Assembly (NCBI GenBank): GCA_031316115.1
Contig: JALDRC010000003.1
Coordinates: 310,001-374,000, forward strand
From: Nitrososphaeraceae archaeon
Lineage (GTDB): Archaea; Thermoproteota; Nitrososphaeria; Nitrososphaerales; Nitrososphaeraceae
Length of the DNA stretch: 64,000 nt
Direction: 5' to 3'
Both the position numbers and the translations under genes were made by a program. Position 1 is the stretch's first letter, and the number at the start of each line of letters is the position of its first letter. The notes under the pieces were generated by a model that did not search any database, was not told the DNA's origin, and saw only the letters and a list, made by a program, of their open reading frames with translations. Positions 15,731 through 56,115 of this stretch are shown here, piece after piece.

Positions 15731-16885
15731 TAAGTCAAGTATCATAATTTAGGCCAACTACCAATATGTCTAAGATACTGTCTCACAGTACATAATAGAT
15801 AATCTTCTGTTTCATAGTTGTAATTGGCACATACGTCTTTCTTGAGATTTCTGTTTACTTTTGTTTCAACTGGATTTAGGTATGGTGAACGTGTTGGTAG
15901 AAATATTACAGTTAACCAACATGATTGGTTTTCCTTAAATCTTTTAGTTTTTTTACTATGATGAAATGATGCATTATCTATTACAAGTATGAATCTCTTG
16001 ATGTTTCTTTTTATTACATATCTTTTGATGCTTTTTAGATGGTTTATAAAATCAATACTATTTCTTGTTTTGCTTGTTGTAAATTTGATTCTGTTACAAG
16101 GATAAAGAAGTGTAATAAATGTATTAATCTTATTTTTAGTTCCTTTATGTTTTATTTTTTGTTGTTCTTCTCTTTTCATGTATGTTTTTGTAATGTATGG
16201 TCTTGTGTACAACCATGTTTCATCTTCAAATCCCAGTAGAATATTTTTTTAAAAGAGCAGATGACACTTTCTTGTATCCATCTATTTTCTTTTTCTTTTC
16301 CTCATAATCTGTACCTTTTTCCAGTTCAAGTTTTGGTCTTTTACATACAATACCTAAATCATTAATTATTCTCCATGTCTGCATTGGACTAACATTCATT
16401 TCTAATGAAGATGAAAGATATGCAGCTAAAAGTCTGATACTTCAAGTATTCTTTTGATAACCAAATGTTTTTGGAGACTTGTTTAATACTATATCTTTTA
16501 CCATCTCTTTATTTTTGTCTGTAGAGATTACTGGTTTTCTTCCTGCATTCACTCTTTTGCTTCTTATACCATCTAATCTATATTTTCTATAATTGTTAAT
16601 CCAATCATACACATTACGATAATTTACACCAACATTTCTGGCTATAGTTCTATATGGTATTCCTTCCATCTTTTGCTTTACTGCAGATGCTCTTCTGTAT
16701 TCTTCTTTGTCTTTAGTATTCTTCATAAATACAAGTAGATCCTTTTTCTGTGAATTTGATAATTTGAGAACATAATTTTTAGCCATAAGTTAATCTAAAC
16801 ATACTACTACTAAGCTAAAGCTCCTTCTATCAAATAATATGAATAATAATGATTCATGTTGATGAAATATGAGATACTTGACTTA
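15731..16885 (-). mobile_element. IS630-family insertion sequence, inactive copy
   Basis: The ends are the perfect 13-base inverted repeats TAAGTCAAGTATC (15731-15743) and its complement (16873-16885), each bounded by the TA dinucleotide that IS630/Tc1 elements target. The length of about 1.15 kb is normal. The single transposase frame inside (15742-16786) is broken. The same family left the remnant near 2.7-3.9 kb. Confidence 0.85.
15742..16786 (-). pseudogene. IS630 transposase with one stop and one frameshift
   Basis: From ATG 16786 the frame encodes a winged-helix/HTH DNA-binding half (YRTIARNVGVNYRNVYDW, ending KTFGYQKNT). It is stopped by TGA at 16442-16444, where a tryptophan codon would be expected. 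The same frame continues with SIRLLAAYLSSSLEMNVSP and KRPKLELEKGTDYEEKKKK, then needs a one-base shift in a run of seven A's near 16250 to enter the DDE half. That half keeps all three acids: GFEDETWLY, FILVIDNASFHHS and SPYLNPVETKVN. The element is recently disabled, since the catalytic residues and both ends survive. Confidence 0.88.
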
Positions 16886-17358
16886 ACAGTATTTTTGGTC
16901 ATCTTTACTAATATTTTAGGTTGCGATTTAATAAATCTAATATTCATATTGATATGATTATGTTCTATTATACTGAAATTCATATCATGCATACAAATTT
17001 ATTTTAAAGACTCTGAAAATAATGTGATGTCATGAGAATAATGATAAACACTAATTTTAAATCTATAAATAATTAAAAATCAGGATTATTAAAATTATCC
17101 AGGTGAATGTATGAAAATACTTGTAACTGACTATTATTAGAAATGATATTACTAATGTATTCTTTTTTAATATGATCTCATGATAGAGAAAAATGAGGTC
17201 GAAAAATACCCAATTAAAAAATAGGTGAAATAATCAAATGAATACGAAATGTATCCATGATGAACTTCTGGAAAAAGACCAAGTATAGCTTAAAAAAGGA
17301 ATGTTCTAGGATATACTAATAACAGTGTAACGTTAAAAGATATAGAGGTAATTAATTG
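16886..17358. other. non-coding gap
   Basis: The stretch between the IS630 end and the cyclase gene. It contains only very short frames (for example MNTKCIHDELLEKDQV at about 17238). A possible ribosome-binding sequence GAGGT lies at 17345-17349, about nine bases before the cyclase ATG. Confidence 0.4.
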
Positions 17359-18246
17359 ATGTTGATTGATACCGAATCTATTCTTGATTTCAAGTCCATC
17401 TTAGATAAAAGAAGGTATGAAGAACAGATGATAGACGGACAGTCTGGTTTTTATGATAATGTAGAACTGGTGTTTATCCCTGAAAATGTTTTTATTAATC
17501 TTTTTAATAACATTCGGCCCAGACACAAGATATCAAATATAGAAATTGATCTTATGATTCAGAACAGTCGGAAGAGAGTATTGAAAACTATTAAAGATGT
17601 ATATCCCAATAGCAAGGATTCTTATGCGCAAATCTTTTTATCTTATTTATCTCGTAAATTTCTTCTGGAGAATAAAAATCAAACTAGAGAGATGGTTATT
17701 TTGTACATCGATTTGGTGGGATCCACAGCATTGACCGCTATATTGAGTCCTGAAGAGCTTTCTATGATCATCAGGATTTTTTGCCAAGAGATTTCTATTT
17801 GTATATCAAGATATTTTGGTTACGTATTAAAATACGCTGGAGATGCAGTTATAGGTTATTTTCCGCAACAACAACAATTATCTAAAATGGATCTATATGA
17901 ACACACATTAAAATGTGCATTTTATATGCAGAAATTGTTGGATGAATCTATTAATGAAGTCCTTTTTTTAAATGGGTATCCTAAGTTAAAAAGTAGAATA
18001 GCTATAGATGTTGGTGAAAATCAAATAGTAGTTTTAGGATCAGAACCCGATCTATTAGGACATGTCATTAGCAGAGCAGCTAAGATAATGAGCAAAGCAC
18101 CACCAAATAATATTGTACTAGGAGATAATATTTTCAAAAACATAGGTGACATTAGTAAAGAAAAATTTCCGAATCAAGACAAATTCATATTGTTTGAAAC
18201 AGGAGAGATGTATTCTATTCATATATCAAATAAAAGGAAAGAGTAG
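17359..18246 (+). CDS. class III adenylate/guanylate cyclase-domain protein
   Basis: 295 residues from ATG 17359, with a possible ribosome-binding site GAGGT just upstream. The C-terminal two thirds is a cyclase homology domain. The first metal Asp is Asp118 in VILYIDLVGST and the second is Asp162 in KYAGDAVIGYF. The region SRIAIDVGE and the late helix GHVISRAAKIM (with the transition-state Arg) follow. It should make cAMP or cGMP from the NTP in the cytoplasm; the position usually occupied by Asn before SRAAK is His or Ile here, so activity is likely but not certain. The N-terminal about 105 residues are a family-specific region with no known sensor motif. The next gene, 46 bases downstream, is a GvpD/KaiC-like ATPase, suggesting a shared signalling role. 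Confidence 0.85.
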   Translation: MLIDTESILDFKSILDKRRYEEQMIDGQSGFYDNVELVFIPENVFINLFNNIRPRHKISNIEIDLMIQNSRKRVLKTIKDVYPNSKDSYAQIFLSYLSRKFLLENKNQTREMVILYIDLVGSTALTAILSPEELSMIIRIFCQEISICISRYFGYVLKYAGDAVIGYFPQQQQLSKMDLYEHTLKCAFYMQKLLDESINEVLFLNGYPKLKSRIAIDVGENQIVVLGSEPDLLGHVISRAAKIMSKAPPNNIVLGDNIFKNIGDISKEKFPNQDKFILFETGEMYSIHISNKRKE

Positions 18247-18292
18247 TTTCAATATATTAAAGTTTTATAACTTTCTGGATTAAGTTATTCAT

Positions 18293-19735
18293 ATGGATAT
18301 GGTGGAGCGAGATCCAGGACTTGCGGATATTCATACTTTTATATGGAATGAAAATAAATCGTTATTGATTAGAGGCAAATCTGGAACTGGTAGAGCTACT
18401 TTAGCTTTGGAAATAGCCAAGGATCATCTAAGCAAGTTTGAGGTCATATTCATATCTAGGAATGTCTCTTTAAATAATATTTATGCAAGATTTCCTTGGA
18501 CGAAAGAATTTTTAAAATCGTATAATATTGTGTCTATTAATACTAACCCTGATTTTATGTTATCTGAATCTTCTGTTATCCTAAATAGCATAATGAACAC
18601 CCTATCTAACAGAATTCAAAAAATTGAAGATCCGTTTATATCTCTAAAGGAAAAACCAAGACCATTTGTTATATTGGAAATTTGGGATAACATAATAAAG
18701 GAACTTGATAGTATGGATATCATACGAACACAAAAAATCTTATCATCGCTAATAGATAAAAATGGAGGTTTCATAATATTTTTGTCTGAAGATATGGATA
18801 ATACAGATATAGATAATTTATCCGATGGGATCATTAATCTTGATCAATCTTTTTATAAATCTTATCGACTTAGAGAAATGCAAATATTTAAACTGAAAGG
18901 AACTGGAATAAATCGGTCTAAAATAGCTTTTACGTTAACAAAGGGACGTTTTAGAACATTTTCACCTCTATCACATAAAATAAATTTTGATAATACAAAT
19001 AATTTTGTTTTTTTCCCCCATAAAGATAGAACATTTTCTACTGGCAACCAGAGACTAGACCATAAATTAAAAGGTGGATTTAAAAAAGGAAGTATAATCT
19101 CAGTTGAGATTGAAGAAGAGGTAGATAGATTTGTGTTTGTACCAATTTTTGTTCCACTTGTGTTAAATTTTATTTGCCAAAGATATGGAGCGTTAGTAAT
19201 TTCTGCTTGGGATCAACCTACGTCTGCAGTAACGAGATACATTTCTCCATTTGTTAGTAAAGAACTTCTCAACACCTTTTTCAGAATAATAGGTAGAGAA
19301 GACGATGTGAAAAACGATGTTGTTTATGAAAGGCCACCATATATCATTCCAGGGATAGAGAGTAGCTTTCTTAAGAATTTTACGTTATGGGAAAAACAAT
19401 ATCAAGAATTAAGAACCAAAAGTGATGGATGTTTAGTTACTGTTGATCTTAGTTTTGTAGAATTACAGTATCAAGCTGAACTCTTGGACATTCAAAAAGC
19501 TATTATTAACTTTTCCAGTAAAATACGATCAAATAACGACTTGCTTGTAATGGTTTCTCGACCATCCTATAAATCACTGGATGTAATGAAAAGTGTTAGT
19601 GATATTCATTTAAGATTTTTTGAATTTAACGATGCTGTAATGTTAGCATCTATTAAACCTCAGTTTTTTTTATATAACATTCAAACAGATCAAAATGCAG
19701 GATATCCTAGATCTAATCTTTTAGATAGTTCATAA
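18293..19735 (+). CDS. GvpD/KaiC-like RecA-fold ATPase with altered P-loop
   Basis: 480 residues. The N-terminal RecA-like domain has a Walker-A-like loop at 28-36 reading GKSGTGRAT. The invariant lysine of GxxGxGK[ST] is Arg34 and the next residue is Ala. A Walker-B-like strand (RPFVILEIWDNI) is near residue 125. The segment YRLREMQIFKLKGTGINRSK resembles the motif seen in GvpD (a gas-vesicle regulator) and KaiC-like proteins. A second half (from about 245, GNQRLDHKLKGGFKKGSII) looks like a degenerate second RecA domain without a P-loop. No gas-vesicle genes are nearby, so a general signalling or regulatory role is more likely. It is probably co-transcribed with the cyclase just upstream. 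Confidence 0.75.
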   Translation: MDMVERDPGLADIHTFIWNENKSLLIRGKSGTGRATLALEIAKDHLSKFEVIFISRNVSLNNIYARFPWTKEFLKSYNIVSINTNPDFMLSESSVILNSIMNTLSNRIQKIEDPFISLKEKPRPFVILEIWDNIIKELDSMDIIRTQKILSSLIDKNGGFIIFLSEDMDNTDIDNLSDGIINLDQSFYKSYRLREMQIFKLKGTGINRSKIAFTLTKGRFRTFSPLSHKINFDNTNNFVFFPHKDRTFSTGNQRLDHKLKGGFKKGSIISVEIEEEVDRFVFVPIFVPLVLNFICQRYGALVISAWDQPTSAVTRYISPFVSKELLNTFFRIIGREDDVKNDVVYERPPYIIPGIESSFLKNFTLWEKQYQELRTKSDGCLVTVDLSFVELQYQAELLDIQKAIINFSSKIRSNNDLLVMVSRPSYKSLDVMKSVSDIHLRFFEFNDAVMLASIKPQFFLYNIQTDQNAGYPRSNLLDSS

Positions 19736-19881: not shown

Positions 19882-20982
19882 TTACTCTGTAATTATTTCG
19901 TATACTTCTGTAATGTGAGGAAATGATTTTTTTATATCCATATCCTCATTGGTAATAGGAATGGAAATTGTTTCATAATTGTCTTGAATTTTTTGCTTTA
20001 CTTCTTTGGATATAATAATTTGATTGTTATCTGCTTTTCCTTCTAATCTACTTGCATAGTTCACTGTTTTTCCAATAATAGTGACCTGAGATCTAGTTCC
20101 AGTATCAATCAAACCAAATAAAACTTCTCCAGTATGTATGCCGCACTTCAAATTTATGTCTATATTTTTGTGATTAAAATCCCTATCCCATATTCCAACC
20201 CATTTATTTTTTATATTTTCAAACGATTTTCTTAAATCGATTGCTGAATTAATTGCTTGAAATACTCCAGAGTTAGGAGAATTGTTTTCGAACCCAAAAT
20301 AAGACAAAATACCATCACCTATGAACTTATCAACAATACCTGAATTATCATGAATTATTTTAGTTGCAAGATCGAAGTATTCTCTTAGAAAACCTATGAC
20401 TGTAACTGGTTCCCTCTCTAATTTATTACAAAGAGTAGAAAATCCATGTATATCCCAAAAAACGATAGTTAAATTTTTACTTTGTAATAGATAGAAATTT
20501 GGATTTTTAAGACTTGAGTAAATTTTTGGATCCAGAAATCTTTGTAATGTTATGTGATTAGGTTCTACGTCTTGAAAAATTGTTTCTCCGCTATTTGGAA
20601 CTGAAATATTAATAGAGGTTGTATTTATTGCATTAGTAAGACTAAAATCTTCTCTCTGTATAGTTTTGTAAACAACTTTATCTTTATTTTGTAACATTAT
20701 TATAGTTCCTTGTTCATTTGGGTGTAGTGAACATCTATAATCGATCCTAGGAAAAAAAGTCTCGAAATTTTTGGTTAAGGATTGAAGTGGATCTAAAAGT
20801 CCAATTTCAGCTCCATAAGGAACTATTTCTCGATCAAAAATAAGATTATGTTGCTTATGATCCACATTTAACCATCTAATTGACTCTCCAACAAATATCT
20901 GTACAAATCTGGGATTAAAGTATTTTTTACCAGGATGATCTAAAAAGTGTGGAATAATAATTGTAGTTAAATTTGCAATCAT
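19882..20982 (-). CDS. cupredoxin-class III cyclase fusion protein
   Basis: 366 residues. Residues 20-100 look like a plastocyanin-like fold: VGESIRWLNVDHKQHN with His42/His45, and YRCSLHPNEQGTIIM with Cys84 and His87. The axial ligand is unclear (Gln91 or Met96, since the usual Met spacing is absent). Residues 168-345 are a cyclase domain with metal Asp177 (VFWDIHGFS) and Asp213 (FIGDGILSYF), then KCGIHTGEV and VNYASRLEG. No signal peptide or clear membrane segment is seen, so the copper-type domain may act in the cytoplasm as a sensor of copper or redox state that controls cyclic-nucleotide output. That role is inference. It converges on the GvpD-like gene. Confidence 0.85.
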   Translation of the reverse strand: MIANLTTIIIPHFLDHPGKKYFNPRFVQIFVGESIRWLNVDHKQHNLIFDREIVPYGAEIGLLDPLQSLTKNFETFFPRIDYRCSLHPNEQGTIIMLQNKDKVVYKTIQREDFSLTNAINTTSINISVPNSGETIFQDVEPNHITLQRFLDPKIYSSLKNPNFYLLQSKNLTIVFWDIHGFSTLCNKLEREPVTVIGFLREYFDLATKIIHDNSGIVDKFIGDGILSYFGFENNSPNSGVFQAINSAIDLRKSFENIKNKWVGIWDRDFNHKNIDINLKCGIHTGEVLFGLIDTGTRSQVTIIGKTVNYASRLEGKADNNQIIISKEVKQKIQDNYETISIPITNEDMDIKKSFPHITEVYEIITE

Positions 20983-32492: not shown

Positions 32493-33667
32493 TTGAGGAT
32501 GGGTCATAATTTATTTAACAAATATAGTAATATTTGCATTATAGTATCATCAAGTTTTACGTTCCTAGCATGTATTTGATTGCCATAGGATTATCTCTAT
32601 AGGTCTTACAGTTGTAGTATACAAGTATTTGGTATAGTAAAACTGATAGTAACACTGTTGCATAACTCTTAGAATATCCTCTGACAGGTAATGGATCTAT
32701 CCTGAATGCATTTTTGATATGTCCTATCAACGGTTCAATTGATATTCCTCTCAAAGAATAAATAACCTGTCCAATATTGGATTCATAGAATTCTATCAGT
32801 TTTATCCTTTCCTCTGGTGTATTTTTATATCTTTGTATAGGACACACCAATTGAAATCCCATATCTGTACTTAGATCATACAGTTCATGATCATCATATC
32901 CAGGATCTGCAGACATGTATGATATTCTTCTAATAATTGTAAATGGAAGACTTGCTGTCAATATACTGTACATCTGGTTATCAGGTATCTTAGCAGTTGT
33001 AAAATCCGCTGCCAATGGTACTACAATGGAACCAATAGTACTTGATATCAAATGCAGTTTCTATCCAAATATCCATCCCTTTGTATGACTGAATCCCCAT
33101 CTTGCATCAGTATCAATACCAGAACGTGGTACTACTCCTTGTTCCATAGAGGATTTATGCCAGACATAACCTTTGGCTTTCATAAGAGTACTATCTGTTG
33201 AAAGAACAGATGGATCAATTATTTTATCATGAACAAAAAGTTCACCCATTATACTAATTCTGTTTTTAATATCTCTAGATATCGTAGCAAGACGTCTATC
33301 AAATGTTCTTTTGTTTGGTATTCTTGATAATCCACATCTTTTCATTACCTTTTTGTTATACCATAGATCCATTGCAAGATATTCATGTAATGCTCTGTTA
33401 GAATCTAGTCGGAACCATATACGTACTATAAAGCATCTCAGAATAACAGTAGGAGAATACACATATGGTCTTCCAGGCCGTGGTTTATTCTTATTATTAT
33501 GTGGCCATCTAATCAAACCAATCAAATACAAAATGCTAATTAGAATGGATGTAGATCTATTTTGTACCGCTAGTTTGTTGGTTTGTATATTGTTTCACTA
33601 AAACATCGTACACTAATAAACTAGCTTTATTCGTTATGAAAATAGAATAATTATGACCCAGCCTCAA
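32493..33667 (-). mobile_element. IS5/IS4-like insertion sequence with 19-base terminal repeats
   Basis: The left end TTGAGGATGGGTCATAATT (32493-32511) and the reverse complement of the right end (33649-33667, TTGAGGCTGGGTCATAATT) match at 18 of 19 bases. They enclose one transposase frame (32557-33531) broken by a single stop. Total about 1.18 kb. Nearly identical ends suggest a fairly recent insertion. No convincing target duplication was seen. Confidence 0.85.
32557..33531 (-). pseudogene. DDE transposase (IS5/IS4-like) with one nonsense codon
   Basis: Two frames in the same phase are separated only by TAG at 33061-33063, between KGWIFG and KLHLISSTIG, where GYKLH would be expected (Tyr to stop). 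The upstream half has the DNA-binding region and the first Asp (VLSTDSTLMKAKGYVW). The downstream half has the second Asp (SYMSADPGYDDHELY) and the Glu (RGISIEPLIGHIK). All catalytic residues survive. The start codon is unclear; TTG at 33531 is the most downstream choice, and the frame is open to about 33596. Confidence 0.85.
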
Positions 33668-33935: not shown

Positions 33936-34568
33936 TTAATTTAATAGATTAAAATTTATTTTTTTGAATTTTTCGATATCATATTTATTATAAAATAGAT
34001 ATACATTTGTTTTAAGATTATGTTTAAACTTTGCAGAACATGCAAGATCAATAAATTTGCCAAATCTAATATTTTTCATATTTTTGTAAACATCGCTACT
34101 ACATAGTATATAACCTCCTTTAGCATAATCTACAATTCTATGAGCTAGTATAACATCAGATCCCCAGTAAGCTATTTGTCCATCTATTTGTTTTACTGGT
34201 TTACTAATACCACATGAAATGCCGGTATTTACTATAATTGTTTTTGAGTCAATTTCATCTTCGCTATAATTTTTGTTATTTCTTATCTTTGTGTTATGTT
34301 GTGTTAAGTATTTTTGAAGAACTAGAGAAAATTTTAATGCATCTTCTCCTTTATTGAAAATAATGAAATACCCATCTCCTGTTGAATTTATGTATAGTAT
34401 TTTATTTATCCCCAATATTTCTGAGTTTGACTTTAAAATTTTATCTACACAAAGTCTCAATTTTTCTAATTTCTCAATTTGAATATCCAATGGAACATTC
34501 TCAGAAGAAGAATCTTCTAGATCAAGAACAAGATAATAGTAATAATATAATTTTTTTTTAGATATCAT
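33936..34568 (-). CDS. class III cyclase-like domain protein, minimal
   Basis: 210 residues consisting of little more than a cyclase homology domain. Metal Asp candidates are Asp16/Asp19 (LVLDLEDSS) and Asp65 (NSTGDGYFIIF). Further blocks are VNTGISCGISK and GSDVILAHRIVDYAKGGYIL, with the conserved Arg and a Cys-containing strand. The unusual YYYYY start (residues 8-12) and short N-terminus set it apart from the other two cyclase-domain proteins here. It could be an enzyme or a catalytically weak regulator. Single gene, no partner. Confidence 0.7.
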   Translation of the reverse strand: MISKKKLYYYYYLVLDLEDSSSENVPLDIQIEKLEKLRLCVDKILKSNSEILGINKILYINSTGDGYFIIFNKGEDALKFSLVLQKYLTQHNTKIRNNKNYSEDEIDSKTIIVNTGISCGISKPVKQIDGQIAYWGSDVILAHRIVDYAKGGYILCSSDVYKNMKNIRFGKFIDLACSAKFKHNLKTNVYLFYNKYDIEKFKKINFNLLN

Positions 34569-55272: not shown

Positions 55273-56115
55273 TTGAAGATATTTTTATCTTTGTTTTTAG
55301 CGATATTATTAGTTAATATATTTTACTTGAATTCCTCCTTTGAAGAACTTTCAGAGGAATCTGTTCCACTTTCTCAAGAATTATTACCATCTTATGTTAT
55401 AGAGATAACCACTGGTTCTGGTGGTAATTATAAATTTCAACATTTTTATCCTCTTAATATTGCTGTTCCAATTGGAACAACAGTAGCGTGGTTTAATGAT
55501 GATCCTGAATCAGTACATACTGCAACAAGCGGAACACCTGGATCTTCTGACTCAGGAAGTTTGTTCAATTCAGGACTTATACCTTATGCTGGATCTATGC
55601 AATATACTTTTGGTAAACCAGGATTAGTTCCTTATCATTGTGAGGTTCATCCATGGATGGTAGGTTCTGTTTATGTGAGTGATAAGGTAAAAGATGGGAA
55701 TAACATAATACTAAAATCTGGATCTGATATGGGATCAGATAGTACTTCATATGATTGGATGTTTAATACTACGAGAAATGATCGTCTATTATTGTCGTTT
55801 GACCCAGTTTCTTTCGCTGTAGAAAAAAGTATCCCCTTAACCTATAATATTACTATGTATGATGATCAAAAGAAAATATTTTCCCAACCGTTTGTTTCTC
55901 TTGGAGATGATCTACAATTAGAACTTGTTGCAAGTAATCTTGATGATATTTTGGTTTATGGTCCTGATTATAGCGATTCTAGAATAGGTGCGTATCATAT
56001 TAGAAGTAGCTTGCCTGAGGGAGAATATAAAATCATAGCTGAAATTACATCATATGGTTCTAACTTGACTCAATCTAAAATCGCAGATGAATTCAAAGGT
56101 ATCATTACTTCTTAA
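55273..56115 (+). CDS. exported cupredoxin (plastocyanin/azurin-like) protein
   Basis: 280 residues. The signal sequence is MKIFLSLFLAILLVNIFYLN. The type 1 copper ligands are His82 (SVHTATSG), Cys123, His126 and Met129 (YHCEVHPWM), a normal blue-copper arrangement. A C-terminal domain of about 130 residues (from SYDWMFNTT) looks like a beta-sandwich of unknown role. Ammonia oxidisers use such proteins as soluble or membrane-facing electron carriers. Translation seems to start at TTG. Intact and single. Confidence 0.9.
   Translation: MKIFLSLFLAILLVNIFYLNSSFEELSEESVPLSQELLPSYVIEITTGSGGNYKFQHFYPLNIAVPIGTTVAWFNDDPESVHTATSGTPGSSDSGSLFNSGLIPYAGSMQYTFGKPGLVPYHCEVHPWMVGSVYVSDKVKDGNNIILKSGSDMGSDSTSYDWMFNTTRNDRLLLSFDPVSFAVEKSIPLTYNITMYDDQKKIFSQPFVSLGDDLQLELVASNLDDILVYGPDYSDSRIGAYHIRSSLPEGEYKIIAEITSYGSNLTQSKIADEFKGIITS

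Follow-up and report, generated by a model that had tools for sequence, protein, structure and literature searches.

The window, i.e. the whole 64,000-nucleotide stretch of Nitrososphaeraceae DNA that was analysed, encodes a protein in which a cupredoxin domain is joined to a class III nucleotidyl cyclase, and on balance the evidence favors a reading in which the synthesis of cyclic AMP (cAMP) is gated from a Cys-His2-Glu site in the cytosol whose metal is probably copper. The gene is an ORF on the minus strand (19882-20982) that starts with ATG and encodes 366 aa, with the plastocyanin-fold domain at the N-terminus and the cyclase at the C-terminus. The fusion had been proposed by a first-pass annotation made from the sequence alone, and Pfam searches, alignments to proteins in the PDB, a family profile and structure prediction all bear it out. 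The protein is divided as follows.

20692..20982, minus strand: cupredoxin (plastocyanin-fold) domain, residues 1-97, without a signal peptide (AF2, Foldseek, profile match).
20560..20691, minus strand: low-confidence linker, residues 98-141 (pLDDT <50 for residues 102-149).
19882..20559, minus strand: alphaN segment (LxRxLDPxxxxxL) and class III nucleotidyl cyclase, residues 142-366, with the stop codon (PF00211, Foldseek).

The full-length AlphaFold2 (AF2) model (17 sequences) had an overall pLDDT of 76, with a confident cyclase and a linker that was disordered between residues 102 and 149. When the N-terminal domain was modeled alone, AF2 predicted an eight-stranded Greek-key barrel with a pLDDT of 89.5, for which Foldseek returned 5fc9 (Nmar_1307, the purple cupredoxin of Nitrosopumilus maritimus) as the first match (TM 0.80), with amicyanins and plastocyanins next (prob 1.00). 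Sequence comparisons gave the same relatives: phmmer aligned residues 18-96 with amicyanins in the PDB, and the family profile of the domain found 5fc9 as its best sequence match (E 8.5e-13). Pfam Copper-bind (PF00127) matched residues 21-59 of the window protein at 19.6 bits against a cut-off of 21.2 (E 0.0013), the genome search with PF00127 placed the window copy at the cut-off (21.2 bits), and the homologue L009 scored above it (E 4.6e-7). In the predicted domain His45 opens a strand, Cys84 ends strand seven (the next-to-last), and His87 and Glu90 lie in and just past the loop preceding strand eight.

Known cupredoxins serve as electron carriers and are exported. The first 60 residues of the window protein contained no export-type hydrophobic stretch, the best 17-residue mean being 0.83, whereas nearly all complete secreted cupredoxins start with a strongly hydrophobic segment and reach about 1.1-2.8, in agreement with the earlier statement that there is no export signal. 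The hydrophobic leader is absent from the cyclase-linked cupredoxins as a group, in contrast to the exported group, and the cupredoxin tree likewise set the linked cupredoxins apart from the exported or secreted ones (99/96).

Alignment of the homologues identified four putative metal ligands in this domain.

20848..20850, minus strand: His45, first putative metal ligand, aligned with His53 of amicyanin; invariant in all fused and split homologues.
20731..20733, minus strand: Cys84, putative metal ligand; invariant in fused and split homologues.
20722..20724, minus strand: His87, putative metal ligand; invariant in fused and split homologues.
20713..20715, minus strand: Glu90, in the axial position otherwise held by Met (CxxHPxE, not CxxHPxM); every fused homologue has Glu.

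The first-pass annotation had named His42/45, Cys84 and His87 as ligands and had made its proposal depend on their proximity in the fold and their conservation. Both checks went in favor of the proposal: the cupredoxin model places His45, Cys84 and His87 at the strand and loop sites given above, and all three are kept in every relative aligned, although the relatives share only 26-36% identity with the window copy in this domain. His42, however, varies (T, S, D, M, N, K or Y in relatives) and was rejected as a ligand, which leaves His45 alone as the first one. Glu90, which sits three residues past His87, was missing from the original list; with it, the four columns of putative ligands belong to a set of just ten that are invariant out of the 104 in the alignment.

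The axial place distinguished the cyclase-linked domains from the others. It was occupied by Met in 64/64 unlinked cupredoxins (distinct domains sampled across the family), in all ten other readable cupredoxins of the window genome, and in the exported cupredoxin encoded at 55273-56115 of the window. In contrast, it was occupied by Glu in 23 of the 27 cyclase-linked cupredoxins (21 high-scoring sequences and two long forms). In the remaining four, all of the split type, a Glu was near but displaced: in L039 it lies one place earlier, at H+2, and L043, L044 and L047 carry an inserted stretch holding a Met and then a Glu, which makes the axial residue ambiguous there. As Glu replaces Met at this place, the site is probably not an ordinary blue-copper electron carrier. 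A carboxylate in the axial place is expected to reduce the potential and can alter which metal is preferred (cf. axial azurin mutants).

The exchange of Met for Glu could also be a switch away from copper, i.e. the site could hold zinc or another divalent metal and either sense that metal or only stabilise the fold. Cys-His2-Glu is a normal ligand set for zinc, which is more available than copper in the cytosol, and the axial change goes together with the cytosolic form; with little free copper in the cytosol, the site could be occupied by another metal. However, apart from the axial residue, fold, WxN....H motif and CxxHP loop are all of the copper-carrier type, and the host organisms are copper-dependent. 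We consider a zinc site unlikely, while ranking it first among the alternatives.

The second alternative keeps copper but changes the stimulus: nitric oxide (NO) would bind or react at the Cys-His2-Glu copper and switch the cyclase, which would make the protein a haem-free, copper-based counterpart of the soluble guanylate cyclase of animals. The ligands of nitrosocyanin are likewise one Cys, two His and one Glu, although its Glu is drawn from a different position in the sequence; nitrosocyanin was absent from the best 50 fold matches of the domain model. The closest solved structure by both sequence and fold, 5fc9, also lacks the axial Met (CSFHPWR), and according to Hosseinzadeh et al. 2016 (as cited in PMC6790972) this purple cupredoxin oxidises NO to nitrite. 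NO itself is described as a key intermediate of ammonia oxidation in ammonia-oxidising archaea (PMC6308003). On the other hand, the match to 5fc9 could reflect the common ancestry of archaeal cupredoxins, 5fc9 has Arg and not Glu at this position, a carboxylate may close the site instead of opening it, and NO is also made by ammonia oxidisers that lack this protein. An NO sensor thus ranks second among the alternatives, also as an unlikely one, and it is rather doubtful that ammonia-oxidising archaea monitor an intermediate of their own energy metabolism through a Cys-His2-Glu copper centre.

The C-terminal half was assigned with larger scores. Pfam Guanylate_cyc (PF00211) matched residues 167-333 (E 4.7e-19, 69.1 bits against a cut-off of 21.9), phmmer aligned residues 169-335 with the adenylyl cyclase CyaC in the PDB (E 1.8e-22), and Foldseek matched the predicted cyclase to CyaB (3r5g, E 9.9e-18, TM 0.89) and also to CyaC. 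All six class III catalytic residues were present (D177, K219, D223, T301, N308 and R312), and the two metal Asp residues noted from the sequence at the outset correspond to D177 and D223.

20452..20454, minus strand: Asp177, cyclase metal Asp 1 (catalytic-residue alignment).
20314..20328, minus strand: Lys219 (purine pocket) to Asp223 (metal Asp 2), DKFIGDG motif (catalytic-residue alignment).
20080..20082, minus strand: Thr301, which pairs with Lys219 as an ATP-type purine pair like that of CyaC (PDB and residue alignments).
20047..20061, minus strand: Asn308 and Arg312, transition-state residues (catalytic-residue alignment).

cAMP is the likelier product because Lys/Thr is the ATP-type pair of CyaC; the residues of the purine pocket thus suggest that the cyclase makes cAMP from ATP.

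Three further observations concern related cyclases. The Nitrosocosmicus fusion L035 (7307-8377) has Gly in place of the second metal Asp and Ser in place of the purine Thr, and may therefore be non-catalytic. A protein from a Coatesbacteria MAG (L069, 5551-6660) has a response-regulator receiver domain at the N-terminal place ahead of a cyclase from the same clade, which shows that input domains can occupy this place. Four paralogous cyclases of one genome (L103 3397-4020, L104 3665-4798, and L105 3445-4620 and 10909-12054) carry a vicinal-cysteine motif, K-C-C-[VI]-G-F-I-D-L-V-N-S-T, at the catalytic Asp, which could be a thiol or metal switch.

We determined the distribution of the architecture at several taxonomic levels. 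Among 400 genomes of the order (best five candidates from each), full-length relatives, with ∼40% identity over residues 8-364, were found solely in the window's family; those named are Nitrososphaeraceae MAGs and Candidatus Nitrosocosmicus. No fusion beyond the family was found in a phylum sample of 398 genomes (again the best five candidates from each). In the contig search a single-protein query gave no match and an alignment query gave matches. The plasmid search returned matches on rhizobial and other plasmids, mostly to the cyclase half, with none above 30% identity among the matches listed.

Within the family, 18 of 70 genomes contain the set, either fused or as two adjacent genes; it occurs in four genera (g1, g2, g5 and g7) and in 11 of the 12 genomes of genus g5. 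Fusions of full length come from four of the family's genera. In the split form, a cupredoxin ORF of 131-138 aa immediately precedes a cyclase gene of the same clade, the gap being -61 to +24 bases. That the two domains are fused in some genomes and adjacent in others links cupredoxin and cyclase independently and is a classical sign of joint function. Several cyclases of the clade have no adjoining cupredoxin. The split pairs form a single group in both domain trees, in which many branches are long and poorly supported, leaving the order of fusion and fission unsettled.

When the domain profile was run over the 70 family genomes, the standard-form cyclase-linked cupredoxins all reached E 1.6e-31 or lower, with a sharp break before the next match at 4e-19; the matches examined below this gap were exported cupredoxins, save for the long forms. 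These (L037 6838-8553 and L038 1456-3174, 571-572 aa) consist of an N-terminal extension, the cupredoxin, the cyclase and an extra C-terminal domain. Their cupredoxin loop, CKLHPWEKG, resembles the exported HPWM loop with Met changed to Glu, a sequence likeness that hints at derivation of the cyclase-linked cupredoxin from the exported HPWM type. L148 (3688-4263) is a truncated fusion of 191 aa that retains the cupredoxin only and has an integrase-like ORF downstream. A supposed large further family of ∼560-aa cupredoxin-cyclase proteins in genus g2, proposed from ORF lengths, was discarded for the five members examined, all of which proved to be exported, with a Met-type cupredoxin at the C-terminus and no match to a cyclase.

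Across ten sequences from genus g5, the cupredoxin had a dN/dS of 0.06 and the cyclase one of 0.068; these absolute values are rough because dS is near 1. Purifying selection is strong on both domains. It is conceivable that the cupredoxin is kept metal-free as a protein-interaction or dimerisation module, as some domains are retained for their binding surfaces alone, but this is improbable, since the core ligands are invariant at such low domain identity and four ligand columns among the ten invariant ones would be unexpected without a metal. That the fusion is a product of chance or mis-assembly, or that the gene is in decay, might be argued only from the window domain's own Pfam score just below the cut-off. 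These readings are ruled out by dN/dS values of about 0.06 and by the homologue set, in which fusions of the same order recur in many genomes and independent assemblies.

In the favored reading, that of a cytosolic metal centre controlling a cyclase, a metal ion, most likely copper, would be held by Cys84, His45, His87 and Glu90 of the N-terminal domain. Binding or loss of the metal, or a change in its redox state, would shift the cupredoxin domain, and this shift would travel along the linker and through the LxRxLDP segment, which is conserved, to the homodimeric class III cyclase, which would convert ATP to cAMP. From the conserved residues and predicted structures we infer that the protein probably binds a metal, that this metal is probably copper, that cAMP is probably the product and that the metal site probably controls the cyclase; what the protein senses would then probably be copper or redox state.

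On the output side, the window genome (G000) has 11 class III cyclase places. No protein matching Pfam cNMP_binding was found in it at E 0.001, using a search that was positive in 10 of 14 control genomes. In genus g5 (L056-L064) the gene order is conserved: the fusion is followed after 55-75 bases by an MFS transporter gene, and then by genes for a small protein with a hydrophobic N-terminus and no family match, a thiamine-binding-like protein and a glyoxalase-like protein. A conserved operon around the window copy was sought and rejected, as its neighbors are not common to the other loci.

The window holds other genes of related type. A gene for a second class III cyclase, which starts with TTG and matches Pfam weakly, lies 46 bases ahead of a gene for a KaiC/GvpD-like ATPase of 480 aa (17356-19735, plus strand); these two genes are convergent with the fusion gene and are possibly another signalling pair. 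A third cyclase-like ORF of 210 aa (33936-34568, minus strand; Pfam place 34062-34451) has a degenerate look. Transposase-like fragments were recognised by eye from the translations at 15742-16212, 16442-16786 and 33061-33531.

The first-pass annotation knew of no described example of this fusion, and our search of the open-access literature, with most subscription papers outside its scope, likewise found no description of a cupredoxin-cyclase architecture. A cytosolic cupredoxin with an altered axial ligand, wired to a second-messenger enzyme, would constitute a new class of metal-centre sensor. The hosts are ammonia-oxidising archaea of soils, which live by the chemistry of copper and NO and are drivers of nitrification there. 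In a genome with 11 class III cyclases and no classical cyclic-nucleotide receptor domain, the fusion also offers a concrete way into an unexplored field.

Each half of the protein has well-studied relatives. The N-terminal domain has the fold and the HN and CxxHP motifs of plastocyanin and amicyanin (PF00127, blue type 1), but these are exported electron carriers with an axial Met, whereas the window protein has no leader, is predicted to be cytosolic, carries Glu at the axial place and is fused to an ATP-using enzyme. Its nearest solved relative by profile and fold, 5fc9, has the same His, Cys and His ligands and also lacks the axial Met, but is a stand-alone cupredoxin with no cyclase and has Arg where the fusion has Glu. 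Nitrosocyanin of Nitrosomonas europaea has been described as the sole well-characterised red, type 2 cupredoxin (PMC4059628). It resembles the putative site in its residue types but is also without a cyclase. The C-terminal domain has the catalytic fold and all six catalytic residues of CyaB (3r5g) and CyaC (1wc0/1wc1), whose regulatory domains differ from that of the window protein. The arrangement as a whole is closest to that of photoactivated adenylyl cyclases (BLUF) and soluble guanylate cyclase (H-NOX), in which an N-terminal cofactor domain controls a C-terminal class III cyclase, as proposed here; the cofactor in those proteins is a flavin or a haem, whereas here it would be a putative mononuclear cupredoxin site. 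The coupling of a sensor to a class III cyclase is already known; so far as the literature search reached, the novelty lies in the sensor, a cytosolic cupredoxin with an axial Glu.
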